A DNA stretch of 64,000 nt, taken from the NCBI RefSeq assembly GCF_003052265.1, contig NZ_QANS01000001.1:682001-746000 (forward strand). Direction: 5' to 3'. Origin of the DNA: Stenotrophobium rhamnosiphilum (GTDB lineage: Bacteria; Pseudomonadota; Gammaproteobacteria; Nevskiales; Nevskiaceae). Positions within the stretch are counted from its first letter, which is position 1; the number at the start of each line of letters is the position of its first letter. Below the pieces are notes generated by a model. It worked only from the letters and a program-made list of their open reading frames with translations, was not told the DNA's origin and ran no database searches. Shown piece by piece: positions 25,340 to 42,521 of the stretch. The position numbers were made by a program, and so were the translations under genes.

Positions 25340-25344
25340 TTATG

Positions 25345-25375
25345 TTAAGCGAATTGGCCGCTGATCGCATCACGT
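25345..25375. promoter_or_regulatory. Motif shared by both AraC/SDR divergent gaps, site 1
   Basis: TAAGCGAATTG, ten less conserved bases, then CGCATCACG. The same bipartite motif occurs at 32307–32337 in the equivalent position beside the paralogous AraC gene, with 21 of 31 positions identical. Two conserved blocks separated by one helical turn suit an AraC dimer or direct-repeat site. Confidence 0.6.
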
Positions 25376-25432: not shown

Positions 25433-26227
25433 ATGAGCCTTCCGCAGCCTAGTTCCGAATCCCGCGCCGTCATCACTGGCGCCTCCAGTGGCATCGGTGA
25501 ACAACTCGCACGTCAGCTCGCCGAGCGCGGTCATTCGCTGATTCTTGTCGCCCGTCGCATCGCAAAGCTGGAAGCGCTCGCTGCTGAGTTGCGCGACAGC
25601 TACAAAGTGACGGTGGACTTGCGGCCCTGCGATCTTGCAGATCGAAAAGCACGCAAGCAGTTTCGCGATGAATTGGCAGCCGCGGATATTTCTATCCTCT
25701 GCAATAACGCTGGTTTCGCAACTTTCGGCAAGCTTGCGAATCTTGATGCCGAGCGTGAGCGTGAGGAGTTAGAACTCAATGCCGTCGCCGTGCAGGATCT
25801 GACACTCGCTGTATTGCCCGGAATGATCCAGCGCAAGACCGGTGCGATTCTGATCGTGGGTTCAACCTCGGGCCATCAACCCACGCCTGCCAACGCGACG
25901 TACGCAGCTAGCAAGGCTTTCGCCAATTCATTTGCAGAAGCACTGCACAGTGAACTGCACGGCACCGGCGTCTCCTGCACCTTGCTGGCACCCGGCCCAA
26001 CACGCACCGCATTTACCGAAGTCGCAGGCGTCTCCAAGCTTGATCGTCTGGGGCCGCTGTGGGTCAGCGCTTCATCAGTAGCGCATGCAGGCATTGATGG
26101 CATGGCGCGCAACAAACGAATTGTCATTCCAGGTTTTGTCGCGCAAGCGCAGACCGTTGGCGGCCGCTACACCCCGCGCAGCATTTTGCTGCCCGTGCTC
26201 AAGCAGGTTTTCTCGAGGCTCGCCTAA
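25433..26227 (+). CDS. Short-chain dehydrogenase/reductase (SDR)
   Basis: A 264-residue classical SDR. The cofactor site is TGASSGIGEQLARQL (residues 15–29), the NNAG motif is CNNAGFATFG, and the catalytic Ser, Tyr and Lys are in IVGSTSGH and TYAASKAFA. It should interconvert an alcohol and ketone with NAD(P). It starts a four-gene operon with an acetoacetate-decarboxylase-like protein, an old-yellow-enzyme-type reductase and a PF10118 hydrolase. The TAA overlaps the next ATG by one base (TAATG). AGAGAAAAG precedes the start. Confidence 0.93.
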   Translation: MSLPQPSSESRAVITGASSGIGEQLARQLAERGHSLILVARRIAKLEALAAELRDSYKVTVDLRPCDLADRKARKQFRDELAAADISILCNNAGFATFGKLANLDAEREREELELNAVAVQDLTLAVLPGMIQRKTGAILIVGSTSGHQPTPANATYAASKAFANSFAEALHSELHGTGVSCTLLAPGPTRTAFTEVAGVSKLDRLGPLWVSASSVAHAGIDGMARNKRIVIPGFVAQAQTVGGRYTPRSILLPVLKQVFSRLA

Positions 26228-26976
26228 TGTTCAATAAACTGCTCTCAGATTTGCGTACGCCTTGGGCATTGGCCAGCTTAGGCGGCAAGCTTTATCGCAA
26301 CGCGCAGTATCTGACCGCTGTTGTTGAGGTGGATGAGAAGGCGATGACGCGTTGGCTGCCAAGCGGTATTAAATTGGCCACGCCTGCTCGCGCAGATTTG
26401 TTCTGCGCTTACTTTCCTGAAAATGTTTATACCGACGCGTATCACGAAGCCGGTTTATTCGTGCATGTGAAAGCGGGTCGCGGCTACGGCATCTTCTGTC
26501 CTTGGATGATCCTCGACGACGACCGCGCCATGATCATCGGCCGCGAGTTGTTGGGTTATCCCAAGAAGCTTGGCGAAATAGCATGGGATGACAATGGTCG
26601 GCGCATCGTTGCAAAAGCATCACGTCGCGGCAGCAGCTTGATCGAGATGGAAGCAAAGCTCGGCGAGGTATTGCACGACGCGCCACCGATTCTCGGACTG
26701 CCGCATCGCAACGTGACCGGCAATCTAGGCCTCAGTCTTCCACGCGAAGTTCGCTTTACGCCGAAGGAACATCCGATTGAAGTGCGCCGCGTCGACATGC
26801 AATTACGTTTTAACGGCAACGCCAATGATCCGCTGCATGAAATGGGATTGGGAAAAGTAGTCGAAGCCCGTCTTCATCGCGTCGATCTTTCTGCTGGATT
26901 GATTCCACCGCTACAAATTCCACGCGTGAGCAATCCGCTATTTCTTTTGCGTCAGTTCAACCCGCGAGTACTTTGA
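26227..26976 (+). CDS. Acetoacetate decarboxylase-like protein (ADC superfamily)
   Basis: A 249-residue ADC-superfamily protein. Recognisable parts are VDEKAMTRWLPSGIKLATPARADLF, then WMILDDDRAMIIGRELLGYPKKLGEI. The latter holds the Glu and the Lys pair that build the Schiff-base pocket in true decarboxylases. Many homologues are not decarboxylases but aldolase/dehydratase-like lyases, so the reaction is open. It overlaps the SDR by one base and is followed by the flavin reductase, so a beta-keto compound made or used by those enzymes is a reasonable substrate. Confidence 0.82.
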   Translation: MFNKLLSDLRTPWALASLGGKLYRNAQYLTAVVEVDEKAMTRWLPSGIKLATPARADLFCAYFPENVYTDAYHEAGLFVHVKAGRGYGIFCPWMILDDDRAMIIGRELLGYPKKLGEIAWDDNGRRIVAKASRRGSSLIEMEAKLGEVLHDAPPILGLPHRNVTGNLGLSLPREVRFTPKEHPIEVRRVDMQLRFNGNANDPLHEMGLGKVVEARLHRVDLSAGLIPPLQIPRVSNPLFLLRQFNPRVL

Positions 26977-26978
26977 TC

Positions 26979-28220
26979 ATGAAAAACACCAACACTAAAT
27001 TGACATCTGCTGCTGCAACGCTGGATCAGTCACTGACACTTCCTTGCGGTCTCACCATTGCCAATCGCATCGCCAAATCCGGCATGAGCGAGCAACTTGC
27101 GAATCGCCACGGCTCACCAACGCCTGAAATCGAACAGCTGTATGCAGCTTGGGCGCGCGGCGGGGCAGGGTTGTTGATCACTGGCAACGTCATGGTTGAT
27201 GGCCGCGCCTTTGTCGAACCACGCAACGCGGTTCTCGAGAGCGATCGTTTCCTGTCTGCCTATAAGCTTTGGGCGAAAGCCGCACATGCACATGGCAGCG
27301 CGATCATCATGCAGATCAATCACCCTGGCCGCGTAGCAGTACTGCCATTGCTGAAAAAACCTTTAGGTCCGTCTGCAGTCGGCCTTGATCTGCCAGCGAT
27401 GAATATCGTCCGCATTCCGCGCGCGATCACTGAGGTGGAGATTCACGAACAGATCGCACGCTATGCAACCACAGCAGCGTTAGCGGTGCAGGCTGGTTTC
27501 GATGGCGTGCAAGTGCACGCGGCGCATGGCTATCTGCTTTCGCAATTCCTGTCGCCACTAGCCAACGTTCGCACGGACGCTTGGGGCGGAAGCCCAGAGA
27601 AGCGCCGTCGTTTTCTGATTGAAGTGGTACGCGCTGTGCGTACAGCAATCGGGCCGAATAAAGCCTTGTCAGTAAAACTCAACTCAGCAGACTTCCAGAA
27701 AGGCGGTCTGTCACAAGAAGAATCGCTGGAGATCGCATTGGCACTGGAAGCCGAAGGCATCGACCTGTTGGAAATTTCCGGCGGCAACTACGAGTCGCCT
27801 GCACAGTTAGGTTTTGCATCGAGCAAACAAGCGGGTCGCGATGCTTATTTCTTGTCTTACGCAGAAGCGTTGCGCCGTCGCAGCAAATTGCCGCTGATGC
27901 TGACTGGTGGTTTGCGCAATGTCGAACTGATGCAACGCATCCTAGCGGAAGGCGTGGTCGAGATGATTGGAATGGCGCGACCGTTTGCGATGCAGCCTGA
28001 TGTAGCAAAACGTTTGTTGGCCGGAGAATCTGCGGCCGAGCCACCGGCTATCCCACGAGTCGGTTACAAGCCTGTAGATGCCTATCTTCAATTGGCTTGG
28101 CACGCCGCACAGTTCCGCAGCATCGCTGCTGCGCGCGATCCAAAACCATTAGGGGGTCTGTTGCGCACAGTGTTGGCGTTCGCGCCGCGTATGGGCTTCA
28201 ACATCGTCACGCAGAACTAA
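26979..28220 (+). CDS. NADH:flavin oxidoreductase, old yellow enzyme/dienoyl-CoA reductase type
   Basis: A 413-residue protein with the OYE TIM barrel only; it lacks the FeS and NADH-binding domains of full FadH. FMN-binding parts include GLTIANRIAKSGMSEQLA near the start, QINHPGRV (catalytic His region), HAAHGYLLSQFLSPLANVRTD and the C-terminal LMLTGGLRN phosphate site. It should reduce activated C=C bonds, such as enones, with NAD(P)H. The start chosen is ATG 26979, just after the preceding TGA; an in-frame TTG at 26973 is less likely. It is the third gene of the SDR operon. Confidence 0.92.
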   Translation: MKNTNTKLTSAAATLDQSLTLPCGLTIANRIAKSGMSEQLANRHGSPTPEIEQLYAAWARGGAGLLITGNVMVDGRAFVEPRNAVLESDRFLSAYKLWAKAAHAHGSAIIMQINHPGRVAVLPLLKKPLGPSAVGLDLPAMNIVRIPRAITEVEIHEQIARYATTAALAVQAGFDGVQVHAAHGYLLSQFLSPLANVRTDAWGGSPEKRRRFLIEVVRAVRTAIGPNKALSVKLNSADFQKGGLSQEESLEIALALEAEGIDLLEISGGNYESPAQLGFASSKQAGRDAYFLSYAEALRRRSKLPLMLTGGLRNVELMQRILAEGVVEMIGMARPFAMQPDVAKRLLAGESAAEPPAIPRVGYKPVDAYLQLAWHAAQFRSIAAARDPKPLGGLLRTVLAFAPRMGFNIVTQN

Positions 28221-28234
28221 AACGGAGCACAGAC

Positions 28235-29113
28235 ATGAGCGCGCTGATCAAGGAGACACACAACATTACACCGCGCCGCCCACGTTTCGATTTCAGTGAG
28301 ACACCTATGCACTGGATTGCCGGCGATCCACTGGCCTCGCAGATGCTCAATGTTCTGCAGCCGATCACGCCAGCGCCGGAGCGTTGGTTTTGTCAGGCCG
28401 TTCGCGAAGCGCTGCCATTAATTCGCGATGAAAAATTGCGGCAGGCAGCCGTGGCATTCATCAAGCAAGAAGGCGCGCATAGCCACGCGCACACGCTGGG
28501 CAATCGCCGACTGACAGAGCTGGGTGTAGATGTCTCGTCATACGAAGCGTTGCTGGATTGGGTGTTCGGTCGAATGCTGGGCTCTGATCCATTCGGACAA
28601 AAACTGAAAAGCCCACGCCTGCGTTTGGCTTGGTTAAAAACGCGACTGGCAATGGTTGCAGCGAGCGAACACCTGACAGGTGTACTCGGCGATTGGGTGT
28701 TGAACGCCAAGAGTCTTGAACAGCTGCCCGTCGATCAAGAGATGCTGCAGTTGTATCAATGGCATGGTGCAGAAGAGGTCGAGCATCGGGAAGTTTGCGA
28801 TGCTGTGTTTCGCGATATCAGCGGAAATATTTTTCTGCGCACGACAGCAGCAGCGTTCGTCTTTCCATTGTTTGCATCGCTTGCTTGGGTCGGCGTGCAA
28901 GAACTCGTGTCCAAAGATCCGCAGCTGCCATATCAACGCGTGCGCATAGCTGACTATCTGCGTGCCGCGCGACAAGGGAAGGTGCCCGCGCCGAGATTTC
29001 TAGTGCGGCGCGCACTGGGATATTTCTCACCTCGTCATAGCCCACTGAACGAGGGCTCGACGGAGCAGGCATTGGCTTATCTTTTGAAGATGCCAAGTCT
29101 GATTCGGACATGA
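28235..29113 (+). CDS. Metal-dependent hydrolase family protein (PF10118)
   Basis: A 292-residue protein with the PF10118 pattern: RPRFDFSETPMHWIAGDP at the N-terminus, then FIKQEGAHSHAHTLGNRRL and WHGAEEVEHREVCDAVF. The conserved Glu and His residues (QEGxH and EExEH) resemble a ferritin-like di-iron site. The name 'hydrolase' is historical, and an oxygenase-type reaction is plausible. The start is ATG 28235, with GGAG ten bases upstream. An upstream extension would overlap the preceding gene. It is the last gene of the SDR operon. Confidence 0.85.
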   Translation: MSALIKETHNITPRRPRFDFSETPMHWIAGDPLASQMLNVLQPITPAPERWFCQAVREALPLIRDEKLRQAAVAFIKQEGAHSHAHTLGNRRLTELGVDVSSYEALLDWVFGRMLGSDPFGQKLKSPRLRLAWLKTRLAMVAASEHLTGVLGDWVLNAKSLEQLPVDQEMLQLYQWHGAEEVEHREVCDAVFRDISGNIFLRTTAAAFVFPLFASLAWVGVQELVSKDPQLPYQRVRIADYLRAARQGKVPAPRFLVRRALGYFSPRHSPLNEGSTEQALAYLLKMPSLIRT

Positions 29114-30184: not shown

Positions 30185-30187
30185 ACG

Positions 30188-30739: not shown

Positions 30740-30752
30740 ACGCTTCTTTTCT

Positions 30753-30910: not shown

Positions 30911-31080
30911 GTCGAAGAGCAACGAGGTTCAGGAGACCGGACGGTGGCGACCGTCAGCTATGGGCTGTTAGCAGACAGCAACATGTGGCACAGCTAAAAC
31001 GAATCGCGCCGTTCACCTGTCTTTCGACATCGCTCATCCGCTTTTCCAGTTGCTGCGAATTTGAATCTGTAGATTAGGTT

Positions 31081-31166: not shown

Positions 31167-31185
31167 ATGGGCGAGGGAATTTCGC

Positions 31186-32295
31186 TCAGCTGCTCACGTT
31201 CAAGCATCGCAGTCGATAAAGGCTCGGTGACTCACCGGTCCACTTACGAAAGGCTCGTGTGAAATTTGCGGGATTTTGGTAGCCGAGGCGGGTGGCTACT
31301 TCTTGTAGATCAAGCTCGGTGTTTTCAATCAGATCGCAGGCATCACGCCGTTGAGTTTCTTCAAGCAGCTGCTGGAATGAACTGCCGTCATCCTTGAGTT
31401 TACGAGCGAGCGTGCGGCTCGATATGTGTAGCTTGGCGGCTAATGTTTCTTGATCAGGATAGCCGCCGTTTTTGGCTTGAATAAGTTCAGCGCAGACGCG
31501 AAGGACGATGCTGTCACCCGCTGCACCGGTCTGCGCTAATTCGCGCTCGCATAATTCGATCGCCTGTTTGGTGGCCAGCGGATCCGCTAGCACGGGGCGC
31601 ATTTCTAATAATCTGATTGGGAAGCGCAGTTGATTACTTGATCGGGAAAATCGAACCGGCGGCAAGCGATCTTTCCAGCGTGCGTGATATTCCGGCTCTG
31701 CCCAATCGAAACACAGTTCACCTCCGAGATCGAGTAACTCTCGACCGAGCATCGCTGCTGCTCCGCGTGCGACGCCAAGCAGAATGTGTTCGTAGAAAAA
31801 ACGACGAAGCGATAAGAGCTGGTTCGCAGCATCGGGTGCCGCTGCGGAAATTTGCGTGGGGAGTTTCTTGGTCGTCGGGATGATCGGATGAAATTCAAAC
31901 ACTTCGACTGCCGCGTAATCCTGCTCAATCAGCATGCGAATTCCGAAGTCACGCTGGCGTGTCTGGAAGTAGCGAATTACAAGCTCCATCGATTCGCGTA
32001 CTGACGCGCAACTCAAAACCGCGTAGCCGAGAAATCCATGCGCAGAGGGACGTGTTCGCAAGCCGCATTCATAACCGAGCGCGGGCTCTTGCAGTAATCG
32101 CATCGCGCGATTTACCAGCAAGCCCCACTGCAGGGCCGACATGCGTGAGGCTGGACTGTCCACCAAATTTGGAGAGACGGGCAATCCTTTGAACAGTTCC
32201 TGCGTATCAATGCCGTGCTCGGCCACGATCTCCAGCAGCAGTTGGAGATAGGACACGGGAACGGTGGGCTTGGCGTATCTGTCCGGACGCTTCAT
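31186..32295 (-). CDS. AraC-family regulator (OruR/arabinose-binding-domain type), paralogue 2
   Basis: A 369-residue paralogue of the regulator at 24272–25339, with the same N-terminal domain (GYECGLRTRPSAHGFLGYAVL) and C-terminal HTH pair (TLAAKLHISSRTLARKL, LQEVATRLGYQNPANFTRAF). It has an insertion around residues 125–145 that paralogue 1 lacks. It diverges from the SDR–monooxygenase–patatin operon and probably activates it. The shared gap motif suggests both paralogues may recognise related sites, so cross-regulation is possible. Confidence 0.92.
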   Translation of the reverse strand: MKRPDRYAKPTVPVSYLQLLLEIVAEHGIDTQELFKGLPVSPNLVDSPASRMSALQWGLLVNRAMRLLQEPALGYECGLRTRPSAHGFLGYAVLSCASVRESMELVIRYFQTRQRDFGIRMLIEQDYAAVEVFEFHPIIPTTKKLPTQISAAAPDAANQLLSLRRFFYEHILLGVARGAAAMLGRELLDLGGELCFDWAEPEYHARWKDRLPPVRFSRSSNQLRFPIRLLEMRPVLADPLATKQAIELCERELAQTGAAGDSIVLRVCAELIQAKNGGYPDQETLAAKLHISSRTLARKLKDDGSSFQQLLEETQRRDACDLIENTELDLQEVATRLGYQNPANFTRAFRKWTGESPSLYRLRCLNVSS

Positions 32296-32306
32296 GGCTG
32301 AAAATG

Positions 32307-32337
32307 ATAAGCGAATTGTCGGGCTTGCGTATCACGC
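32307..32337. promoter_or_regulatory. Motif shared by both AraC/SDR divergent gaps, site 2
   Basis: TAAGCGAATTG, ten variable bases, then CGTATCACG, matching site 1 at 25345–25375. It lies 12 bp upstream of the AraC start and about 70 bp before the SDR start, the same layout as in the other copy. Confidence 0.6.
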
Positions 32338-32406
32338 TCCACGCGGAACTCTTCACAGAATGCTCCATCGACCCGACTAAACGGGAACCGAATCTAAGGA
32401 GTCGTC

Positions 32407-33255
32407 ATGGCAAAGGGTGTAGCGCTCAAGGGCGCAGTGGTTGCAATCACGGGTGGAGGTCGCGGCATTGGCCTCGCCATCGCAAAGGCCATGGCAGAGC
32501 AGGGCGCGCGAGTCAGCTTGGGAGATATCGACGCTGATCTGGCGCTGAAAGCTGCCGAACCTCTGGGTGGATATGGCGGTCGTTTGGACGTGCGCGACCG
32601 CGAGTCGTTTGTGAAATTTCTGGACACCACGCGACGCATGCTCGGGCCCATCGACGTGCTCATCAACAACGCCGGCATCATGCCGATTGGCGCGTTCACT
32701 GATGAAACGGATGCAATGTCGGATACGCAGATCGACATCAATCTGCGCGGCGTCATTCATGGTTGCAAGGCGGTGCTGCCAGAGATGCTTGCTCGTGGCA
32801 CGGGCCATATCGTCAATGTCGCTTCATTGGCTGGCGTCATGCCAGTGCCGGGTCTGGCGGTTTACTGCGCCACCAAATTTGCAGTGCTGGGCTTAACGCA
32901 AACACTGCGTGAGGAATATCGCGACAGTGGCATTCACTTCACTACCATTATGCCGTCGAAGGTGAGAACCGAATTGGCTTCGGGCTCTGATGCGGCTCGC
33001 GGCATTCCGTCAGTTTCTCCCGGGCATGTTGCTCGCAGTGTGGTCGATGCGATTAAGCACCAGCGACGTGAAGTCGCGGTGCCTAGCTATCTCGGCTCAA
33101 CGCCTGCCGTGCTCAACCTCACGCCGCAGTGGCTCATGCGTCGCTTACGTCATGCGATTGATGATCGGGCGGGGCTGGAGAAAATTGATCACCAGCAGCG
33201 TGCTTCTTATACGCAGCGCATCGAATCTCTGACTGCGGCGAAGAAACTGCGATGA
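32407..33255 (+). CDS. Short-chain dehydrogenase/reductase (SDR)
   Basis: A 282-residue classical SDR: cofactor motif TGGGRGIGLAIAKAM at about residues 15–29, Asp at the end of strand 2 (LGDIDAD, suggesting NAD preference), NNAG in LINNAGIMPIG, catalytic Ser in NVASLAG and YxxxK in YCATKFA. A C-terminal extension of about 30 residues follows the usual fold. It should oxidise a hydroxyl to a ketone. The ATGA junction couples it to the Baeyer–Villiger-type monooxygenase, which could take that ketone as substrate. Confidence 0.93.
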   Translation: MAKGVALKGAVVAITGGGRGIGLAIAKAMAEQGARVSLGDIDADLALKAAEPLGGYGGRLDVRDRESFVKFLDTTRRMLGPIDVLINNAGIMPIGAFTDETDAMSDTQIDINLRGVIHGCKAVLPEMLARGTGHIVNVASLAGVMPVPGLAVYCATKFAVLGLTQTLREEYRDSGIHFTTIMPSKVRTELASGSDAARGIPSVSPGHVARSVVDAIKHQRREVAVPSYLGSTPAVLNLTPQWLMRRLRHAIDDRAGLEKIDHQQRASYTQRIESLTAAKKLR

Positions 33256-34760
33256 ATGCCTACGAAAAATCGCGTGAGATCGAAGTCGTCGTTGTCGGTG
33301 CTGGCGTCAGCGGTATCGGTGCGGCGATCAAGTTGCTCGATAACGACATCAAGGATTTCGTTGTGTTGGAGAAGGCAGATGCGCTCGGTGGCACATGGCG
33401 CGACAACACTTATCCGGGCTGTGCCTGTGATGTTCCTTCGCATCTGTATTCCTATTCATTCGCACAGAAGTCGGACTGGACTCGCATGTTCGCGAAGCAA
33501 TCTGAAATTCTTGACTACGTGAAAGAGACTGCGAGCCAATATCAGCTGGAGCCTTATATCCACTTTAGTGAGCCAGTCGAATCCGCAGCGTGGGATGAAC
33601 ACGATATGCGTTGGCTGGTGCGTACACCCAAAGGAAATTACCGCGCGCGCGTTCTGATTTCCTGCACGGGCTATCTGCATGATCCGCAAATACCCAATCT
33701 GCCGGGACTCGAAAATTTTCCGGGCAAGGTTTTTCATTCTTCGCGCTGGGATCATGCGCACGATCTCAATGGTGAGCGCGTCGCGGTGATTGGCACCGGC
33801 GCCTCAGCAATTCAGTTCATTCCAGAGATTCAATCGAAGGTTAAATCACTGACGGTTTACCAGCGCACGCCACATTGGGTTTTGCCGAAGTCTGATGGAA
33901 AAATTTCAAGCTTCGGACATCGCATGCTGCGCCTGCCTTTTGTCACGCAGGCTTGGCGCAAGATGCTCTACACAGGCTTCGAAACTTTCGGCATCGGCTT
34001 TCGCCATCCGAGCTTGCTCAAATATGCGCAGCGCATGTCCTACGGAATGATGAATCGCCAGATCAAAGATCCTGAATTGCGTAGCAAGGTCACGCCGAAT
34101 TACACGCTGGGTTGTAAGCGTGTACTACTTTCCAATAGCTACTACCGTGCGCTGACCAAACCCAATGTTGAAGTGCTCGCAACCGGCGTCGATTCATTGC
34201 GTGGACGTACATTGATTGGTGCGGATGGCAGTGAACGCGAGATCGACACGATCATTCTTGCGACTGGTTTCCACGTTACAGAACAGCCGAGCATGGCGCA
34301 TGTCTTCGGTGTGGACAGGCAACGCTCGCTGTCACAAGTCTATGCAGGAAGTCCGGAAGGTTATCGCGGCACCACCGTCACGGGTTTTCCTAATCTCTTT
34401 CTGGTGCTGGGCCCCAATCTCGCCATTGGCCACAACTCTGCGTTTGTCGTCATTGAGTCGCAGCTCGCTTACATCATGAGTGCGCTGCGCGAAATGCGGA
34501 AAGAGAAAATTGCTCGCGTTGAAGTGTTGCGTGAAGTGCAGAACGCATACAACGAAAAAGTACAGCGTGATCTACGGGGAACAGTCTGGAATGCGGGTGG
34601 TTGTTCCAGCTATTACCTCGATACCAACGGTCGCAACAGCACGGGGTTTCCTTGGAGCACGCTAGAAATGCGACGACTGCTGGCGCGCTTTGATATCGGT
34701 AGTTACGCAACGCAATCGCTCAAAGCTTCAAAAAAGGAGAGCGCTCGTGAAGCGGCTTGA
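33252..34760 (+). CDS. Flavin-containing Baeyer–Villiger-type monooxygenase
   Basis: A 502-residue class B flavoprotein monooxygenase. FAD binds at VVVGAGVSGIGAAIKL (residues 13–28) and NADPH at VIGTGASAIQFIPEI. Between them is the type I Baeyer–Villiger fingerprint FxGxxxHxxxWD (Phe156 to Asp167, FPGKVFHSSRWD). It should insert oxygen next to a ketone, giving an ester or lactone. It overlaps the SDR by four bases and the patatin gene by 14. The order alcohol dehydrogenase–BVMO–hydrolase is the classical ketone-cleavage module. Confidence 0.93.
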   Translation: MNAYEKSREIEVVVVGAGVSGIGAAIKLLDNDIKDFVVLEKADALGGTWRDNTYPGCACDVPSHLYSYSFAQKSDWTRMFAKQSEILDYVKETASQYQLEPYIHFSEPVESAAWDEHDMRWLVRTPKGNYRARVLISCTGYLHDPQIPNLPGLENFPGKVFHSSRWDHAHDLNGERVAVIGTGASAIQFIPEIQSKVKSLTVYQRTPHWVLPKSDGKISSFGHRMLRLPFVTQAWRKMLYTGFETFGIGFRHPSLLKYAQRMSYGMMNRQIKDPELRSKVTPNYTLGCKRVLLSNSYYRALTKPNVEVLATGVDSLRGRTLIGADGSEREIDTIILATGFHVTEQPSMAHVFGVDRQRSLSQVYAGSPEGYRGTTVTGFPNLFLVLGPNLAIGHNSAFVVIESQLAYIMSALREMRKEKIARVEVLREVQNAYNEKVQRDLRGTVWNAGGCSSYYLDTNGRNSTGFPWSTLEMRRLLARFDIGSYATQSLKASKKESAREAA

Positions 34761-35697
34761 TCGTGCGAAAAAGTCTGGAGCCAAACGCGCCTTGGTACTC
34801 GGCTGCGGCGGTGTTGCGGGTGCGGCTTGGACCATCCCCATGTTGGATGCGGTGCAACGGCAGTTGAAATGGGATGCGCGTGAAGCGGACATTCTGATCG
34901 GGACTTCCGCAGGCGCCGTCATTGCCTCACTGCTTGCGGCTGGCGTGAGCGTTGATCAAATGATGGCAAGTCAGAACGGTACGGCCGAAGACTGCATCTG
35001 GAATCACGACACCGATACCGGCGGTGCACTGCCGCCGCGACCGGCTCTGCGTTTTCCTGCGGCGAGACTGGCGATTCAAGGGCTACGCGGCAAAGTGGGT
35101 TTACTTGCCGGAGTCAGCGGGTTGTTGCCAGAAGGCCGTTGCGACATGACGCCATTTATGCGCGTGATTGATAGCGTTGTTCCTGAGGGAGAATGGGCAC
35201 CACATCCGGCTTGTTGGATCGTGACCGCCGATGCCAAGAGTGGCGAGCGTGTTGCGTTTGGTCGCGATGACGCGCCAGAAGCGCCGATGAATCTTGCGGT
35301 CTGTGCGTCCTATGGCGTGCCCGGCTGGTGCCCGCCGATTCAGATCGGTGATCGATCCTTCATGGACGGTGGCATTTTATCGCCGACGTCTGCGGATTTA
35401 TTGCTGGGCAGTGATGTGACTGAGGCCATCGTCATCGCTCCTATGGCATCGACGCAATTCGACCATCCCACATCTATGGCGACGAAGATCGAACGCTACA
35501 TGCGTCGATACATGACTCGCATCGTTGATCGTGAAATTGTGCAGCTTCGTGATGCGGGCATCCGTGTTGTTCGCTTGGAACCGGGCCCGGCAGACCTGAA
35601 GGCGTTTGGCTCCAATATGATGGATCCACGCAGGCGCTTGAGGGTATTTGAGACTGCGCTGCGAACCGCGCCAGAAACGCTTCGAGCGGTGGCATGA
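34747..35697 (+). CDS. Patatin-like phospholipase/esterase
   Basis: A 316-residue patatin-fold hydrolase. The oxyanion loop is GCGGVAGAAW, the nucleophile elbow IGTSAG has Ser54, and the catalytic aspartate is Asp207 in FMDGGI. The start is GTG 34747, inside the monooxygenase 3' end, with AGGAG eight bases upstream. An earlier in-frame start would lengthen the overlap without sense. In this operon it is the natural candidate to hydrolyse the ester or lactone made by the monooxygenase, although patatins more often act on lipids. Confidence 0.92.
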   Translation: MKRLDRAKKSGAKRALVLGCGGVAGAAWTIPMLDAVQRQLKWDAREADILIGTSAGAVIASLLAAGVSVDQMMASQNGTAEDCIWNHDTDTGGALPPRPALRFPAARLAIQGLRGKVGLLAGVSGLLPEGRCDMTPFMRVIDSVVPEGEWAPHPACWIVTADAKSGERVAFGRDDAPEAPMNLAVCASYGVPGWCPPIQIGDRSFMDGGILSPTSADLLLGSDVTEAIVIAPMASTQFDHPTSMATKIERYMRRYMTRIVDREIVQLRDAGIRVVRLEPGPADLKAFGSNMMDPRRRLRVFETALRTAPETLRAVA

Positions 35698-35853
35698 TTT
35701 CTGCAATTTCTTCATATCGTTATAATTTTTAATACAGTGTCCTCTAGAGCTAAAGCTCGCCAAATTGAGCAAGGCATACTCCGCGCGCATTGTGGTCAGG
35801 GCGACTCTTTGTCGTGTGCCACGCTCGTTCAATACGATTCTGAGGGTGAAAAA

Positions 35854-37218
35854 ATGTCGCGTTCGGGGCTGAATTTTCTCGCTGCATTTCTATGCTTGAC
35901 GCTGGCTGGCCAAGCAAACGCCAAGGTCTCCACCGCGGAGGCTGCCCAGATCGGTCAATCGCTGACGGAAGTTGGCGCGGAAAAAGCGGCGAGCGCTGAC
36001 GGCCGAATCCCGGCGTGGACGGGCGGCATCAAGCCTGCTGATTTCGGAACGAAGTTCGCCAACTTCAAGCAAGGTAATTTTTATCCGGAGCTGTTTTCCG
36101 AAGATAAACCGCTGCTCAAGATCACCCACGACAACTACAAAAAGTATGTGACTGAACTGCCCGCCGGCGCGCAGTTGATGTTGGAGCGTTATCCGCAGTA
36201 CTTCCTGAATGTTTATAAATCGAGACGAACGGCCGCGTACCCTGATTTCATCGCCAAGGCGACTCAAGAGAATGCGACCACTGCGCATCTCGAAGGCGGC
36301 GACGACTTAAAGGACTCGAAGCTGGGCTTTCCATTTCCAATTCCAAAAACCGGCATGGAGGCGATCTGGAACCATAAGGTTCGATACCTCGGCAGCACGG
36401 TGGATCAGACCGGCAACTTTCTGGTTGTCAGCCCCGATGGTGGGATTCATAGCGCGAGCTACACGCAGTCCGTGCGCTTTCAATACGCCAATCCGAAAAT
36501 GGCGCAGGAAGATAAGCGCGGCATGATTTTCCAGTTGGTCCGCACACAGGTCGCGCCGCCACGACTGGCCGGGCAGGTGACGATGGCTTGGGAATATCAG
36601 GACGGCTCAAGAGAAGCTTGGCTTTATACGCCGGGCACTCACCGCGTACTCAAGGCTCCTTCGCTGGGCTTTGATGCGCCGATGGTCGGTACCGATGGTG
36701 GCGTGTCCATTGATCAAGGCGACATGTTCAATGGCTCGCTCAAACAATATTCATGGAAGCTGTTGGGCAAGCGCGCGATGTATATCGCTTACAACAACTA
36801 TCACCTCCAGCAACCTTCGCTGAAATACAGCGCCTTGATCCGCGCGCGTCATCTGGCACCGGAACATCTGCGCTATGAATTGCACCGCGTATGGGTTGTC
36901 GAGGCGACGCTGGCTCCCGGCCAGAAGAATGTCATCGCTAAACGCGTTTTCTATATCGACGAAGACAGTTGGACGATTGCAGCGGTTGATTGCTACGACT
37001 CACGCAATCAGTTGTGGCGGTATCAGGAAGGTCATTTGTTCCCGCTGATCGTGAATCAGATTGTGGTGCCTGCGCCGATGGCTGTTTACGACTTCACCTC
37101 GGGTCGTTACGTGTTGACCAATCTTGTCAACGAGCTTCCATACGTCGCCAAATTTGATGTGAAGTTTTCCGCTGACTACTTCACGCCGCAGCGCATTTTG
37201 AGTTCGGGCCGGCAGTAA
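35854..37218 (+). CDS. DUF1329 periplasmic/outer-membrane lipid-handling protein
   Basis: A 454-residue protein with a signal peptide (LNFLAAFLCLTLAGQANA). Its DUF1329 pattern includes AASADGRIPAWTGGIKP after the signal and later YTPGTHRVLKAPSLGFDAP and FYIDEDSWTIAAVDCYDSR. The fold is related to LolB-like lipoprotein-sorting proteins, which bind hydrophobic molecules. DUF1329 genes commonly pair with DUF1302 genes, as here (38958). The pair is thought to move hydrophobic compounds across the outer membrane; no transport assay is known to me. The start ATG 35854 has GAGGG eight bases upstream. Confidence 0.88.
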   Translation: MSRSGLNFLAAFLCLTLAGQANAKVSTAEAAQIGQSLTEVGAEKAASADGRIPAWTGGIKPADFGTKFANFKQGNFYPELFSEDKPLLKITHDNYKKYVTELPAGAQLMLERYPQYFLNVYKSRRTAAYPDFIAKATQENATTAHLEGGDDLKDSKLGFPFPIPKTGMEAIWNHKVRYLGSTVDQTGNFLVVSPDGGIHSASYTQSVRFQYANPKMAQEDKRGMIFQLVRTQVAPPRLAGQVTMAWEYQDGSREAWLYTPGTHRVLKAPSLGFDAPMVGTDGGVSIDQGDMFNGSLKQYSWKLLGKRAMYIAYNNYHLQQPSLKYSALIRARHLAPEHLRYELHRVWVVEATLAPGQKNVIAKRVFYIDEDSWTIAAVDCYDSRNQLWRYQEGHLFPLIVNQIVVPAPMAVYDFTSGRYVLTNLVNELPYVAKFDVKFSADYFTPQRILSSGRQ

Positions 37219-37249
37219 TGCCATACCCAATAATTTCAGAGAATAAATA

Positions 37250-38926
37250 ATGAAGCCGAGACTCCGCCGTATTGCGCTCATCCTCGTTGTGATTGTTGCC
37301 GTCATTGCTGTGCTGGGGCCGATCGCGCGCGACTATGTGATTCTGCATATCGCGGGTTGGATGGCGCCTCCTGTTGGCGAGCCACAGGAAGTGACATGGG
37401 CGACTGGCGAAACACCGCCAACATTGGCCGGACAAAAACGTCCGAACATCGTCGTCATTCTCGCTGACGATCTGGGTTACAACGATCTGAGCTTTGGCGG
37501 TGGTGGCGTCGCTAACGGTGCAGTGCCAACGCCGAACATCAATGCGATTGCGCATGATGGTGTGACGCTAGCGCAGGGTTACGCAGGTAATGCGACCTGC
37601 GCACCTTCTCGCGCTGCGATTCTCACAGGCCGATTCGCAACGCGTTTCGGTTTTGAGTTCACGCCGGTGCCTAAAGAGTTCTCCAAGGTCATCAGCAAGT
37701 TTCGCAATGATATGGGTCACACAGGTCCTAATGATCCGCCAGTGATTTATCACTCCGAGTTGGAGGACCAAGAGCCGCCCATGGATGACATGGGGCTTCC
37801 GACTTCCGAAACGACGATTGCTGCGTTGTTGAAGAGCCGTGGTTATCACACGATTCATCTCGGCAAATGGCACTTGGGATCTGCCAAGCGTTTTCAGCCA
37901 CTCTCAGTTGGCTTTGATGAATCTCTGGGCTTTTATCAGGCGGCTTCGATGTTCTTGCCTGAAGACGATCCGAACGTCGTGAATTCGAAGCAGGATTTCG
38001 ATCCGATCGACAAGTTCATCTGGCCTAATCTTCCGTTCGGCGTTGTTCATAACGATGGCGATTATTTCCGTCCCAAGGCTTATATGACGGACTACCTGGC
38101 AGATGAGGCAGTTAAAGCGATTCATGCCAACGCGAAGCGGCCGTTCTTCATGTATCTCGCATTCAATGCCGTGCACACGCCTCTGCAAGCACTTAAGTCT
38201 GACTACGATGCGCTGCCGCAGATCAAGGATCACCGCATGCGTGTGTATGCCGCGATGGTGAAGTCGTTGGATCGCAGCGTCGGTAAGGTCACTGCTGCGC
38301 TGAAGGAACAGGGTCTCGAAGACAACACGCTGGTGATCTTCACCACCGACAACGGCGGCGCGCATTACATCGGCTTGCCGGATATCAACAAACCTTATCG
38401 CGGTTGGAAGGCAACGTTCTTTGAAGGTGGCATCCACGTGCCTTTCTTCATGAAGTGGCCCAACCAATTGCCGAAAGGCGTGAGCTATCAAAGAGCCGCA
38501 GCGCATGTCGATATTTTCTCGACGGCCGCAGCTGCTGCTGGCGCAGCTGTGCCAACGGATAGGGTTTACGACGGCGTAAATCTGGTGCCCTTCATCCAAG
38601 GCAAAGACGGGGGTCATCCGCATGACGCGCTTTATTGGAGATCGGGTGATTACAGCACGCTGCTTGCTGGCGACTGGAAACTTCAATCGGCCGAGAAGCC
38701 GAAGAAGGATTGGTTGTTTAATCTCAAGAATGATCCAACGGAGAAGGTCGATCTTTCTGCCAAAGATCCAGACAAGCTTGCAGAGCTCAAAGCGCTGATG
38801 GCTGTGAAAAGTAAGGAGATGGTCAAGCCGTTGTGGCCATCGCTGCTGCAAGCGCCGGTGAAGATTGATTATCCGATGGGGCTTCCAGCGCCTCCCGGTG
38901 CTGAATATGTTTATTGGTCGAATTGA
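37250..38926 (+). CDS. Sulfatase (type I, formylglycine-dependent)
   Basis: A 558-residue arylsulfatase-type enzyme. The formylglycine signature is CAPSRAAILTG with Cys117. Metal ligands are in ILADDLGYNDL near residue 70 and IFTTDNGG near residue 368, and HLGKWHLG carries the conserved Lys and His. An N-terminal hydrophobic segment (ILVVIVAVIAVLGPIA) anchors it or acts as an uncleaved signal, placing it in the periplasm. It hydrolyses a sulfate ester to an alcohol. It lies between DUF1329 and DUF1302 genes, so the imported compound may be sulfated. No maturation enzyme is in the window. Confidence 0.94.
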   Translation: MKPRLRRIALILVVIVAVIAVLGPIARDYVILHIAGWMAPPVGEPQEVTWATGETPPTLAGQKRPNIVVILADDLGYNDLSFGGGGVANGAVPTPNINAIAHDGVTLAQGYAGNATCAPSRAAILTGRFATRFGFEFTPVPKEFSKVISKFRNDMGHTGPNDPPVIYHSELEDQEPPMDDMGLPTSETTIAALLKSRGYHTIHLGKWHLGSAKRFQPLSVGFDESLGFYQAASMFLPEDDPNVVNSKQDFDPIDKFIWPNLPFGVVHNDGDYFRPKAYMTDYLADEAVKAIHANAKRPFFMYLAFNAVHTPLQALKSDYDALPQIKDHRMRVYAAMVKSLDRSVGKVTAALKEQGLEDNTLVIFTTDNGGAHYIGLPDINKPYRGWKATFFEGGIHVPFFMKWPNQLPKGVSYQRAAAHVDIFSTAAAAAGAAVPTDRVYDGVNLVPFIQGKDGGHPHDALYWRSGDYSTLLAGDWKLQSAEKPKKDWLFNLKNDPTEKVDLSAKDPDKLAELKALMAVKSKEMVKPLWPSLLQAPVKIDYPMGLPAPPGAEYVYWSN

Positions 38927-38957
38927 TAGCTACAAGATTTGGGGAAGGGGATAAAAA

Positions 38958-41081
38958 ATGGGGAATCAACAACGAAGCCAGCAGCGCCCACGTATGGCGC
39001 TGCTGGGGGGAACTTCGTGGATCGTGGCCGCTGTAGCTGCATTGCCATGTGTGGCATCTGCTGCTGTTCTCGATCTTGGCGATAGCGGCTTCACTGGCTC
39101 GGCCGATCTGATGGTCACGGCTGGCGCGCGCGTTCGTACGCAATCACGCGATTCTGATCAGATTGCTAAAACCAATCTGCCGGGGCAACAAGGTTTTTGC
39201 GATGACAAGAATGGCGGCATCAGCTGCGTGACGGTTGCTGGCAACGCAGCTTTTTTGGCGCTGCCTGGTTCCTTGGCGATCAACGCTGACAACGGCGATC
39301 TAAATTACGACAAGGGTGATCTGGTCAATGGCGCGCTCAAGCTTTCGCCAAGACTTCAGCTCACTTATGGCGAGTTTGGTCTCGATCTCAGCGGCCTCTA
39401 TTTCTACGATGCCATTAACAGCGGCTTCGATGAATATCATCCCAACAACAGCAGTAACAACGGCTTCCAGCCTGAGCACACGCGACGCGCTAAGAGCGCG
39501 GAAAAAGATATTGGCTCTAACTTCGAGTTATTGAACGCTTATGTGTCTGGCGCGATACCGCTGAATGAAGATCACAATATTCGCTTCAAGGTCGGCAACT
39601 TCGTGCTTAACCAAGGACAGAGCAGTTTCTTGGTGTTGAACAGCCTCAACATCATCAATCCTCCAGACGTTAACGTCGCCAATTTGCCGGGCGCGGATCT
39701 CAAAGAAATCTTCAAGCCAGTGCCGCTGATTGCACTGGATACTTCATTGACTGAAAATTTTTCTCTACAGGGTTTCTATCAATTCAAATGGGTTGGTGCG
39801 CCACTGATTCCACAAGGCTCTTACTTCTCGACTTCTGATCCCGTCGGCGCAGGCGGCACCTATGCGCAGATCGGTAACGGCAAAAATCGCGAAGATCCAA
39901 TGGATCGAGTGGGTAAAGAAGGTCGCCTGCCTGGCGTCGCTTCGCTGCTTTCAAAAGCAGGACGCACCAACAACCGCGCGCCAGATCAGGATGCGCGCGA
40001 CAGTGGCCAATACGGCCTCTCAGCCAGCTACTTTGCTCACGAGCTGAACGATACGACGCTTGGAATTTATTACCGCAATCTTCATAGCCGACTGCCGATC
40101 TTCAGCTTTCATGCTGCGCAGAAATCGTGCGCCTCTGACGCGACCAACGCAGTTGATGCGCTAGCTGCGTGCGGTGGCTTCACTTCGGTTCCTGTGACTG
40201 GACTGGAGCCTACGCCAGTTGATACCGCGCGATACTTTTTGGAATACCCGGAAGATATTCATAGCTTCGGCTTCAATTTCACCACTTCGCTGGGCAGCGT
40301 GGCTTGGTCAGGAGAAGTTGTTTATCGCCCCAATCAGCCGCTGCAGGTTGATCCGGTCGACGTTGGTTTCGCCGCGCTACAGCCCGCTTTCCCCAAGCAG
40401 ACCATTAGCTTGGCAGTTCAGGATATTCCGGGTCAGCGAGTGGCTGTGCCGGACTATCTCTACACGACTTATCTCAAGCAAGTGGTAGAGCCCGGGCAGA
40501 CAGTGCACGGTTTTATTCGTCGTAAGACGCTTGCCTATCAGACGTCGTTCCTCTACTCAGGCGGCGCAAGCGACAATCCTTTTGGTGCCACATCAATCAC
40601 CGCATTGGTGGAACTGGGGGCTTATCAAGTTCTCAATCTTCCCAGCTTGAATGAGTTGCAATTGGCAGGTCCGGGCACCGCGACGCATCACAGTGCGGGC
40701 ATCGACGGAACAGGCATCGCAAACAGCCAGCAGCAGGCGTCAAGCGCAGCGGGCCGACAGAATGCGACCTCGCAAACCAATGGTTACGCCGACAGTCTTT
40801 CCATTGGCATGCGTTCGCTATTCGCGCTTGAGTACAACGATGTATTCGAAGGCATCAAACTGATTCCGGTTCTGGGCTACTTCCATGATTTTCGCGGAAC
40901 AGCGCCATTGCCTTCAGGCGAATTCATCTCTGGCCGAAAACAAGTGGTGTTGCAGCTTCAGTTCAATTACTTCGATCGCTTCTTTGGCGGCGTCACCAAT
41001 ACTTTTTACTTAGGCGGTCGCGAATTCAATTTGCTGCGCGATCGCGGCAATGTCTCGGCATTCATCGGCTTCCAGCTCTAG
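38958..41081 (+). CDS. DUF1302 outer-membrane protein
   Basis: A 707-residue protein with a signal peptide (WIVAAVAALPCVASAA) and a long beta-rich region. The DUF1302 features are GDLNYDKGDLVNGALKLSPRLQLTYGEFGLDLSG near residue 115, the asparagine-rich loop YHPNNSSNN, and KVGNFVLNQGQSSF. It ends in a barrel strand with an aromatic-poor terminus (SAFIGFQL). It is probably an outer-membrane channel acting with the DUF1329 protein. The cluster of signal-bearing proteins around it fits uptake of a hydrophobic substrate. Confidence 0.88.
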   Translation: MGNQQRSQQRPRMALLGGTSWIVAAVAALPCVASAAVLDLGDSGFTGSADLMVTAGARVRTQSRDSDQIAKTNLPGQQGFCDDKNGGISCVTVAGNAAFLALPGSLAINADNGDLNYDKGDLVNGALKLSPRLQLTYGEFGLDLSGLYFYDAINSGFDEYHPNNSSNNGFQPEHTRRAKSAEKDIGSNFELLNAYVSGAIPLNEDHNIRFKVGNFVLNQGQSSFLVLNSLNIINPPDVNVANLPGADLKEIFKPVPLIALDTSLTENFSLQGFYQFKWVGAPLIPQGSYFSTSDPVGAGGTYAQIGNGKNREDPMDRVGKEGRLPGVASLLSKAGRTNNRAPDQDARDSGQYGLSASYFAHELNDTTLGIYYRNLHSRLPIFSFHAAQKSCASDATNAVDALAACGGFTSVPVTGLEPTPVDTARYFLEYPEDIHSFGFNFTTSLGSVAWSGEVVYRPNQPLQVDPVDVGFAALQPAFPKQTISLAVQDIPGQRVAVPDYLYTTYLKQVVEPGQTVHGFIRRKTLAYQTSFLYSGGASDNPFGATSITALVELGAYQVLNLPSLNELQLAGPGTATHHSAGIDGTGIANSQQQASSAAGRQNATSQTNGYADSLSIGMRSLFALEYNDVFEGIKLIPVLGYFHDFRGTAPLPSGEFISGRKQVVLQLQFNYFDRFFGGVTNTFYLGGREFNLLRDRGNVSAFIGFQL

Positions 41082-41093
41082 CCCTAGGGCAAG

Positions 41094-41666
41094 ATGAAAA
41101 CAAGATATTGGATTGCGCTAGTCGTCATTGCTTGTCTGACGGGCGTGCTTGCGACAAAGCCTGTCGTGGCATACCTGATGAACCGGTTTGCAGTTCATAA
41201 CGGTTCATGGACGACGAGTGCCAGCACCGGTAGCGACAGCGCTAATATCTATGAGCGTGCCGCGATTGCTGTAGCGGGCCTTTATGCACTCTCGAACAAA
41301 GAGGCGATCTACTACACCGCGTTTACTGATAGCGATGGTCAGCCTTTAGACGGCGCCTGTGATTACAGTCTTCGTGGATCAACGCTGCCAGCGCGTTGGT
41401 GGAGTCTGACGATGTATGGCGCAGATCATTATCTCGTCGATAACGTTGCTGGCATCTATTCGCGACACGCGGGCAACCTGGAATTTGCAGCGGATAAAAG
41501 TTACAGCGTGCATATTTCAGCAACAGCCCAAGCGCACAACTGGTTGCCTGCGCCGAAGAGTGGAAAGTTTTCAATCACGCTTCGACTTTACAACCCGGAT
41601 GTCACAGTTCACGAGAACTTGTCCGGCATCGCCTTGCCTGTGATTACGCGAGGGGGCTGCAAGTGA
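41094..41666 (+). CDS. DUF1214 domain protein
   Basis: A 190-residue protein with an N-terminal membrane anchor or signal (YWIALVVIACLTGVLATKPVVAY). The DUF1214 pattern is NKEAIYYTAFTDSDGQPLDG, then PARWWSLTMYGADHYLVDN, and a C-terminal SITLRLYNP. It overlaps the DUF1254 gene by four bases. In many bacteria the two domains form one protein in the order DUF1254–DUF1214; here they are separate genes in reverse order. No reaction is established. Confidence 0.85.
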   Translation: MKTRYWIALVVIACLTGVLATKPVVAYLMNRFAVHNGSWTTSASTGSDSANIYERAAIAVAGLYALSNKEAIYYTAFTDSDGQPLDGACDYSLRGSTLPARWWSLTMYGADHYLVDNVAGIYSRHAGNLEFAADKSYSVHISATAQAHNWLPAPKSGKFSITLRLYNPDVTVHENLSGIALPVITRGGCK

Positions 41667-42202
41667 AAGTCCTCAAGCTGATTGCGGTATTCATTCTGAT
41701 TGCGGGCTTGAGCAATCTGGCGACGGTTGCGGCCTTGCCGTATCTGATTAATGCGTACGTCGCCCATCGCATTGCTGATGTCGTTGGTGGGTACAACAAA
41801 GCCCTGCATGCGCCACGCCCAGATTCTCATGCGCGCACGGTGGTGCGTCCAAGTCCGGACCTGCTCTATACCGCCTGCGCTTTTGATATCTCAGAACATC
41901 CATTGTTGATTACAGCGCCGGTGCAGAGGAGTTACGTCTCGGTGTCGGCCTTTGCTTCGGATACCAGCAACTTCGCTGCAATCAATGATTCGCTGCTGCA
42001 AGCTGATGCAAGCGGCAACAAGCATTTCAATTTGGTCTTAGTGCGTGAGGGCGTGTCGGTTGATCTGCCAGCAGGAGCGCAAGTCATTAAAGCGCCTAGT
42101 GATAAAGGACTGGTCCTGTTTCGATCGCTGATCACTGACGAAGCCCAGTTGCGGCAGTTGCAACAGGATTTTCAAGCGCAGCAGAATTGCAGTCCCTTGT
42201 AG
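41663..42202 (+). CDS. DUF1254 domain protein
   Basis: A 179-residue partner of the DUF1214 protein, with an N-terminal membrane segment (LIAVFILIAGLSNLATVAALPYLI) and the DUF1254 pattern RPSPDLLYTACAFDISEHPL and YVSVSAFASDTSNFAAIND. The soluble part should lie in the periplasm. It ends the accessory cluster. GTG start, overlapping the preceding TGA. Confidence 0.83.
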   Translation: MKVLKLIAVFILIAGLSNLATVAALPYLINAYVAHRIADVVGGYNKALHAPRPDSHARTVVRPSPDLLYTACAFDISEHPLLITAPVQRSYVSVSAFASDTSNFAAINDSLLQADASGNKHFNLVLVREGVSVDLPAGAQVIKAPSDKGLVLFRSLITDEAQLRQLQQDFQAQQNCSPL

Positions 42203-42445: not shown

Positions 42446-42521
42446 TGGTGGAGCGAAGGTGGATCGAACTCCCGACCTCTGCATTGCAAACGACGCGCTC
42501 TCCCAGTTGAGCTATCGCCCC
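42446..42521 (-). tRNA. tRNA-Ala (anticodon TGC), with imperfect stems
   Basis: A 76-nt cloverleaf with encoded CCA. The acceptor stem GGGGCGA/TCGCTCC keeps the G3·U70 alanine identity pair. The D-arm GCTC/GAGC, anticodon loop TTTGCAA and T-loop TTCGATC are normal. The anticodon stem (CGTCG against TGCAG) has two mismatches and a wobble, and the T-stem (GGGAG against CACCT) has an A·A mismatch. It may be a poorly functional or decayed copy. It marks the border between accessory and core regions. Confidence 0.75.

Follow-up and report, generated by a model that had tools for sequence, protein, structure and literature searches.

Two adjacent gene modules in Stenotrophobium rhamnosiphilum, one combining a sulfatase with DUF1302 and DUF1329 proteins and one built around a Baeyer-Villiger monooxygenase

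Results

Gene content of the locus

The gammaproteobacterium Stenotrophobium rhamnosiphilum (Nevskiales) has a genome of 3.96 Mb, and our analysis concerns a run of nine genes at positions 31186–42202 of a 64,000-nucleotide stretch of it (contig NZ_QANS01000001.1, positions 682,001 to 746,000), referred to below as the window. The run consists of module A (31186–35697), with genes for an AraC-family regulator, a short-chain dehydrogenase/reductase (SDR), a type I Baeyer-Villiger monooxygenase (BVMO) and a patatin-like hydrolase, and module B (35848–42202), with genes for a DUF1329 protein, a type I sulfatase, and DUF1302, DUF1214 and DUF1254 proteins. All nine genes gave full-length Pfam matches above the cut-off, which confirms the gene list of an earlier interpretation made from the letters of the DNA (the sequence-only reading). 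That reading had joined the nine genes in a possible complete system for uptake, desulfation and ketone cleavage, and it is this claim that the comparison with related genomes does not support. The genes are as follows:

31186..32295, minus strand: AraC-family regulator, module A, divergent from the operon (Arabinose_bd PF12625, 4.8e-24; HTH_18 PF12833, 2.6e-19)
32407..33255, plus strand: SDR, module A (PF00106, 2.4e-51; NCBIfam PRK07825, 348.8 bits, cut-off 287)
33252..34760, plus strand: type I BVMO, module A (PF00743, 2.5e-21; fingerprint FPGKVFHSSRWD; phenylacetone monooxygenase as the best match among solved proteins, E 2.5e-67)
34690..35697, plus strand: patatin-like hydrolase, module A (PF01734, 2.5e-17; GTSAG and DGG)
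35848..37218, plus strand: DUF1329 protein, module B, probably exported, LolA-like, with a signal-peptide-like start (PF07044, 1.7e-115, scanned from a start at 35737)
37250..38926, plus strand: type I sulfatase, module B (PF00884, 1.5e-53; CAPSR)
38958..41081, plus strand: DUF1302 protein, module B, a probable outer-membrane barrel according to the literature (PF06980, 1.6e-152)
41094..41666, plus strand: DUF1214 protein, module B, small, with a hydrophobic N-terminus (PF06742, 1.8e-26)
41663..42202, plus strand: DUF1254 protein, module B, small, with a hydrophobic N-terminus (PF06863, 9.1e-19)

In the BVMO, the FxGxxxHxxxWD fingerprint already noted in the sequence-only reading lies at residue 156; the protein also has a GCKR motif and both glycine motifs of the Rossmann type. 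The CAPSR motif of the sulfatase, likewise noted in that reading, is found at residue 117. The SDR has the motifs TGGGRGIG and YCATK. The description of the locus as a nearly unbroken plus-strand order is correct for the eight genes at 32407–42202 but not for the AraC gene on the minus strand. From SDR to DUF1254 the intergenic gaps measure -4, -71, 150, 31, 31, 12 and -4 bases, so that the widest one separates patatin from DUF1329, provided that the latter starts at 35848. This start is probably the correct one, and not 35737, because the signal-peptide-like stretch begins there. The patatin open reading frame as listed (TTG, 34690) overlaps the BVMO gene by 71 bases, and its true start is therefore likely to lie further downstream.

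Module B in related genomes

A search for relatives of the sulfatase (E ≤ 1e-120) in 85 genomes of the order, that of S. rhamnosiphilum included, retrieved window-type sulfatases in nine genomes. Next to the sulfatase gene, three of the eight other genomes (working numbers G041, G034 and G029) also have genes for DUF1302, DUF1329, DUF1214 and DUF1254 proteins. Their order is DUF1214-DUF1254-sulfatase-DUF1302-DUF1329-FGE in G041, FGE being the formylglycine-generating enzyme, and in G034 and G029 divergent DUF1254/DUF1214 genes are followed by FGE, sulfatase, DUF1302 and DUF1329 (FGE was identified by Pfam in G041 and G029 and by a model in G034). DUF1302 and DUF1329 genes are adjacent in these three genomes; in the window a single gene, that of the sulfatase, separates the two. 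As judged from gene neighborhood, the linkage speaks for a joint function of the module B genes because it persists across differing gene orders. The unit of sulfatase and DUF1302/DUF1329 pointed out in the sequence-only reading is thus real and recurrent. Neither BVMO nor patatin relatives were found near the eight other sulfatase genes (about 9 kb on each side, less in G034).

The nearest DUF1302 proteins (E ≤ 1e-140, four other genomes) stem from G041, G034 and G029 (68, 48 and 49% identity) and, as the fourth, from G027 (44%); the nearest DUF1214 proteins are encoded in the same three genomes as the sulfatase-linked DUF1302 proteins. A phylogenetic tree was calculated for 15 DUF1302 proteins. 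In it, the members linked to a sulfatase, four in all, formed a 100/100 clade, with the window protein next to that of G041 and apart from the eight paralogs from its own genome that were included. The genomes with such DUF1302 proteins (4/99) and those with the sulfatase (8/99) overlap in three cases (hypergeometric P 0.0014, a value that ignores kinship, G034 and G029 belonging to one genus). The S. rhamnosiphilum genome (about 4 Mb) yields sixteen DUF1302 matches in all, and none were present in 14 control genomes.

Identities agree for sulfatase, DUF1302 and DUF1329, with 67–70% between the window and G041 and 48–54% between the window and G034/G029. The DUF1214 and DUF1254 proteins of the window, on the other hand, are closer to those of G029/G034 (52–61%) than to those of G041 (38–41%), and because of this ranking the history of the pair is, by sequence identity, different from that of the rest of module B. 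The two are separate small proteins here, and the solved chains matched by DUF1214 comprise 443–491 residues. DUF1214 has a weak solved relative in VPA0106 (E 3.7e-07), the sole match for DUF1254 (E 0.99) is no relative, and none was found for DUF1302 or DUF1329.

Module A in related genomes

BVMO relatives (E ≤ 1e-60) are present in 82 of 100 genomes, again including that of S. rhamnosiphilum, and close ones only in G051 (72–73%) and G058 (58%). G051 has the whole of module A in the same order (AraC 60, SDR 71, BVMO 72 and patatin 67% identity). G058 has SDR-BVMO-patatin in the same order with 58–63% identity, a divergent TetR-like regulator, and genes for beta-oxidation downstream (thiolase, 3-hydroxyacyl-CoA dehydrogenase, acyl-CoA dehydrogenase). 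The SDR-BVMO-hydrolase unit recognized in the sequence-only reading is therefore borne out by two further genomes. A sulfatase or DUF1302 gene was not found near module A in G051 (about 21 kb, to the contig end) or G058 (19.9 kb).

In the 18 BVMO loci that we compared, which are part of many matches and include the second BVMO of S. rhamnosiphilum itself, an SDR relative occurs in 15 and a PF10118 relative in three, and the window-type sulfatase in none. Proteins of the SDR, BVMO and hydrolase families convert alcohols via ketones and esters into acids. Module A resembles such alcohol oxidation modules in the frequent company of an SDR and differs from them in that, among the loci compared, only G051 and G058 showed the exact SDR-BVMO-patatin set including a close patatin. 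The mycobacterial virS-mymA regulon comprises an AraC-type regulator, a BVMO, a hydrolase (LipR) and an SDR; module A has a patatin in the place of LipR, and the similarity between VirS and the AraC protein of module A is weak (E 1.3e-07). What the two may have in common is a ligand-responsive regulator in charge of a BVMO operon, module A having a divergent AraC gene and a conserved putative operator; in mycobacteria, a ligand-responsive regulator is reported to control the BVMO operon (PMC13234193). A literature search did not find the grouping of BVMO, short-chain dehydrogenase, patatin and AraC.

A putative operator shared with an upstream operon

The spacer between the AraC and SDR genes of module A contains a putative operator, and a second copy heads another operon further upstream in the window. 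The features concerned are:

24272..25339, minus strand: sister AraC gene of the upstream operon, its product 42% identical to the AraC protein of module A
25346..25374, plus strand: second operator copy, heading the upstream operon
25433..29113, plus strand: upstream operon SDR-ADC-OYE-PF10118 metal-dependent hydrolase (Pfam), with the shared operator
32308..32336, plus strand: putative operator of module A, TAAGCGAATTGTCGG-N5-CGTATCACG, in the AraC/SDR spacer, one of two genomic sites with at most three mismatches

The pattern TAAGCRAAWTGKCSG-N5-CGYATCACG occurs between the AraC and SDR genes in the window operon, the upstream operon and G051, where the orthologous spacer (locus L139) matches exactly. 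Allowing up to three mismatches, the window contains exactly two matches (0 expected from 100 shuffles), and the same two sites are the only ones in the whole genome (control zero). The pattern was derived from the two window sites and that of G051, so that recovering these sites is no evidence in itself; what counts in favor of the putative operator is the absence of further genomic copies and the conservation of spacing and letters between the paralogs and in G051. Upstream of DUF1329 the operator is absent, the best placement in 35600–35860 having nine mismatches.

We infer that the AraC proteins bind this element. The upstream AraC-SDR-ADC-OYE-PF10118 operon is then probably co-regulated with module A, and, because the operator heads only the two AraC operons and does not precede DUF1329, the regulon is likely to span 24272–35697, with module B outside unless transcription reads through from module A. 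As to a possible separate promoter of DUF1329, the gap behind patatin contains a TATAAT hexamer, and a consensus promoter scan lists no site there.

Further features lie around these operons. Plus-strand hairpins with a terminator-like tail occur at 31081–31168, where a weak likeness to the Rfam anti-hemB RNA was also recorded (28 bits, cut-off 49.5). Genes for a carboxylesterase, a TonB receptor and a GH106 rhamnosidase stand in series at 5140–12773, and a further TonB receptor and an esterase are encoded at 16682–20813.

Right border of module B

Module B is followed by the remnant of a tRNA gene and then by mucD, lepA, lepB and rnc (named from Pfam domains):

42449..42521, minus strand: inverted tRNA-Ala-like remnant bordering module B on the right (RF00005, 37.7 bits)

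ARAGORN made no call for the remnant in a scan of the window, and a relaxed local run calls it tRNA-Cys. A genome of the same genus (G001) has an intact tRNA-Ala(CGC) gene before mucD and on the strand of mucD, to which the window relative is 88.5% identical over 87 bases in inverted orientation. A closer copy was not found elsewhere in the S. rhamnosiphilum genome. The order mucD-lepA-lepB is kept in the seven relatives that were compared out of 22 with a match, G001 included, and in the stretches of these seven none of the catabolic genes of the window lies upstream of mucD. Because the tRNA relative is inverted with respect to G001, a breakpoint lies at the right edge of module B, and the remnant is likely to be a rearrangement scar. 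This fits a recent arrival or a rearrangement of the cluster without proving either.

The sulfatase: family, structure and substrate class

The sulfatase positions that we take to be catalytic by analogy to arylsulfatase A (D73, D74, R121, K206, H208, H309, D367, N368 and K387) and the CAPSR motif show no variation in two alignments, one of 24 and one of 26 rows. The genome has two genes for FGE (PF03781 matches). In the predicted structure of the sulfatase (pLDDT 83.6), residues 2–37 form an N-terminal helix with a hydropathy peak of 3.16 at residue 10, which we read as a membrane anchor that would leave the catalytic domain in the periplasm. The nearest solved structures are carrageenan galactose-4-sulfatases of family S1_19, the top two with Z 44.3 and 44.1 and 37–38% identity; further S1_19 structures at Z 39–40 are tied with other sulfatases, and human 4-sulfatase (Z 38.9) and human steryl sulfatase (Z 35.7, 32% identity) follow, a ranking that does not decide the substrate. 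PsS1_19B, a member of S1_19, is reported to bind its substrate with an aromatic shelf formed by F103, Y455 and Y458 (PMC6923384). In the profile of the window family, F103 aligns with a non-aromatic residue, and Y455 and Y458 fall outside the alignment. The window enzyme is thus like PsS1_19B in fold and catalytic residues and unlike it in its anchor-like helix, its hydrophobic-uptake neighbors and the lack of an aromatic equivalent of F103.

A family scan listed at least 80 named sulfatase loci. The best 37 of these (L020–L056, 50–69% identity) are mostly from Parvibaculum, Sphingopyxis, Hyphomonadaceae and Caulobacterales, and the nearest named one among the matches listed is that of an uncultured Sinobacteraceae bacterium (69%). 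We compared 44 loci, namely the best 37 named and seven unnamed ones, several of them shorter than the full flank; L101, a copy of L020, was left out. Model matches were obtained for FGE in 26 of them, TonB-dependent receptors in four, DUF1302 in three, BVMO in three and patatin in none; FGE was confirmed by Pfam in L101, L022 and L107. One further relative (L015, G048:C2:126323-127966) has an in-frame TAG and is either a decayed gene or affected by a sequencing error.

Another contig of S. rhamnosiphilum (L164/L165, G000:C18:1-40000) contains a possible steroid-catabolism region with genes for a KshA_C-type Rieske protein, a PRK07121-type FAD protein, DUF1302/DUF1329, a luciferase-like monooxygenase, and a second sulfatase with FGE. 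The Rieske protein exceeds the Pfam cut-off and stays far below that of the matching NCBIfam sterol model, and the scores of the FAD protein against 3-ketosteroid dehydrogenase models do not reach the cut-off. Steroid sulfate was not adopted as an established substrate of the window sulfatase, since the steroid-type genes lie on that other contig and S1_19 enzymes resemble the sulfatase more closely than steryl sulfatase does; sterol-type conjugates are plausible substrates, and a terpenoid sulfate, the other class considered in the sequence-only reading, is a possible one. A literature search combining steroid sulfate, sulfatase and bacterial degradation retrieved nothing.

Discussion

One pathway or two modules

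The general picture that emerges is one of two adjacent catabolic modules, and we consider it moderately probable that module B serves as an envelope unit acting on a sulfated amphiphile, with module A as a cytosolic unit regulated together with the upstream operon. Module A is absent from the clusters of G041, G034 and G029, the sulfatase is absent from those of G051 and G058, and the operator is conserved at the BVMO operon and missing before the sulfatase half. These are outcomes of the kind that the sequence-only reading had itself named as refuting its proposal. The widest gap of the plus-strand series, 150 bases, also falls between the two modules. The modules thus occur apart and share no operator, and for these reasons a single operon was not adopted as the leading interpretation. 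A number of observations weigh against this picture, some of them against the separation of the modules and some against module B as an envelope unit. No terminator-like site is listed on the plus strand of the patatin/DUF1329 gap, so that module A could read through into module B. DUF1329 relatives occur in four of the 18 BVMO loci. In G029 (L198, G029:C3:43000-62900), a BVMO gene (42% identity, with an in-frame stop) and then an SDR gene (38%) lie at 8658–10709 on the same strand as module B and beyond it, beginning 7.9 kb from DUF1329 and about 11.7 kb from the sulfatase. In G041 (L101), the surroundings of module B, up to some 8 kb away, contain genes for a distantly related SDR (35%) and for two AraC relatives, and a fusion of FA_desaturase and rubredoxin, alkane-hydroxylase-like, follows just past FGE (15808–17334). 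The neighbors in G029 and L101 are not module A, yet they keep a functional link open. Three sulfatase loci (L023, L026 and L034) have BVMOs that are 26–34% identical to that of the window, and in L023 and L026 these are encoded directly downstream of the sulfatase. The same two loci contain a GH5 gene with PF18564 that lies on the opposite strand and precedes the sulfatase by 1 and about 4 kb (7092–9041 in L023, 3873–5828 in L026). The best solved matches of the L023 protein are the sterylglucosidases 7lpo (E 1.1e-79), which we take to be Sgl1, and SglA (9.9e-77), followed by endoglycoceramidases (about 1e-16). Both GH5 proteins are 77% identical and hence count as one event; among 200 loci examined such a gene was found only in these two, and L023 also has an ecdysteroid-kinase-like gene. 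L023 and L026 provide the best independent hint that this sulfatase family meets sterol conjugates and BVMOs. As to module B itself, the sulfatase occurs without DUF1302/DUF1329 genes nearby in five of the eight other genomes of the order (G042, G012, G064, G070 and G048; DUF1214-like stretches only in G012), and a DUF1302 fold predicted from a two-row alignment reached a pLDDT of only 25.7.

Read together, part of these observations would fit a common pathway for a sulfated alcohol, e.g., a sterol conjugate, in which module B would be responsible for uptake and removal of the sulfate, and module A would oxidize the alcohol to a ketone, insert oxygen and hydrolyze the resulting ester, the two modules having been joined recently in this lineage. 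Such a pathway would agree with the common strand and the 150-base gap, with the chemistry of desulfation, whose alcohol product is of the class on which an SDR acts, with the BVMO-SDR pair 7.9 kb beyond module B in G029 and the BVMO genes behind the sulfatase in L023 and L026, and with the Rieske protein, DUF1302/DUF1329, second sulfatase and FGE of contig C18. However, among the loci compared the window is the only place where module A and the sulfatase meet (no patatin in the 44 sulfatase loci, no sulfatase in the 18 BVMO loci), the operator ties module A to another operon, and the BVMOs of L023, L026 and G029 (33–42% identity) are by score not orthologs of that of the window. We therefore regard a common pathway of both modules in S. 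rhamnosiphilum as rather doubtful. A second question concerns the sulfatase, which might act on a polysaccharide or on a sulfated sugar that is carried by a lipid, as in sulfated steryl glycosides or glycosphingolipids, and not directly on the hydroxyl of a sterol or terpenoid. The ranking of the S1_19 galactose-4-sulfatases before human 4-sulfatase and steryl sulfatase points in this direction, and so do the GH5 proteins of L023 and L026 and a gene set in G027 (L195, G027:C1:3186000-3205900, 4338–11112), where the nearest DUF1302 that does not belong to the sulfatase clade is encoded in a DUF1302-DUF1329-neutral ceramidase-SDR set. Against it stand the non-aromatic residue at the F103 position, the presence of the GH5 gene in only 2 of 200 loci, the other neighbors, which in the hand-picked part that was scanned are mostly oxidoreductases, CoA-pathway enzymes, GST and regulators, and the fact that a common fold is no proof of function; a sugar sulfate is accordingly a possible but not a probable substrate. 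It is very unlikely that the sulfatase serves only to supply the cell with sulfur, the carbon part being left unused. The five genomes with the sulfatase and no DUF1302/DUF1329 genes nearby would suit such a role, but the linkage to DUF1302/DUF1329 is stable in four genomes, that of S. rhamnosiphilum included, and a sulfate transporter is not among the genes scanned in 24272–48277.

Proposed roles of the two modules

If two modules are assumed, a sulfated amphiphile would meet the DUF1302 protein of module B in the outer membrane, and the DUF1329 protein would handle the hydrophobic substrate or product in the periplasm and, together with DUF1302, carry it across the envelope. The sulfatase would be held in the inner membrane by its anchor, expose its active site to the periplasm and, after maturation by an FGE encoded elsewhere in the genome, remove the sulfate, and the anchored DUF1214/DUF1254 pair may assist at the inner membrane. 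In the cytosol, the enzymes of module A, under the control of AraC, would form a ketone (SDR), an ester or lactone (BVMO) and finally an acid (patatin-like hydrolase).

Pairs of DUF1302 and DUF1329 proteins have been described before. In Pseudomonas putida, the metabolism of Tween 20 is reported to require PP_0765 and PP_0766, for which complex formation is predicted (PMC10866462), and in Castellaniella, which has AmeA and AmeB, growth on monoterpenes was lowered when ameB, the gene for the DUF1329 protein, carried an insertion (PMC6394551). As far as these accounts go, the likeness to module B lies in the same Pfam pair and in the setting of hydrophobic compounds; the difference is that module B integrates a sulfatase and DUF1214/DUF1254. 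The RND and YCF48-like partners in P. putida are listed with locus numbers distant from those of the pair (PMC10866462); neither an RND transporter nor a YCF48-like protein is encoded among the neighbors scanned here, the whole genome not having been searched for either. No paper naming DUF1302 together with a sulfatase was found in a literature search. Both modules are of known kinds, and the gene combination of module B was not found in print in this search.

The G027 gene set suggests that envelope hydrolases beside DUF1302/DUF1329 are exchangeable, because the pair adjoins a neutral ceramidase there and a sulfatase in the clade of the window. As a tentative idea, which we put forward with considerable reserve, DUF1302/DUF1329 pairs may be lipid ports equipped with an exchangeable envelope hydrolase that unmasks the substrate, i.e., the sulfatase in this clade and the ceramidase in G027. 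Module B would then be a gateway dedicated to desulfation followed by import of sulfated lipid conjugates, perhaps sulfated steryl glycosides, which come into consideration because related sulfatases have sterylglucosidase-like neighbors, and the split DUF1214/DUF1254 pair would be a membrane-anchored helper.

The locus illustrates that two tidy gene sets on the same strand can be mistaken for one pathway. For the protein families concerned, the Pfam entries DUF1302, DUF1329, DUF1214 and DUF1254 name no function yet, and a DUF1302 clade that is co-inherited with one clade of sulfatases gives them a testable substrate class.

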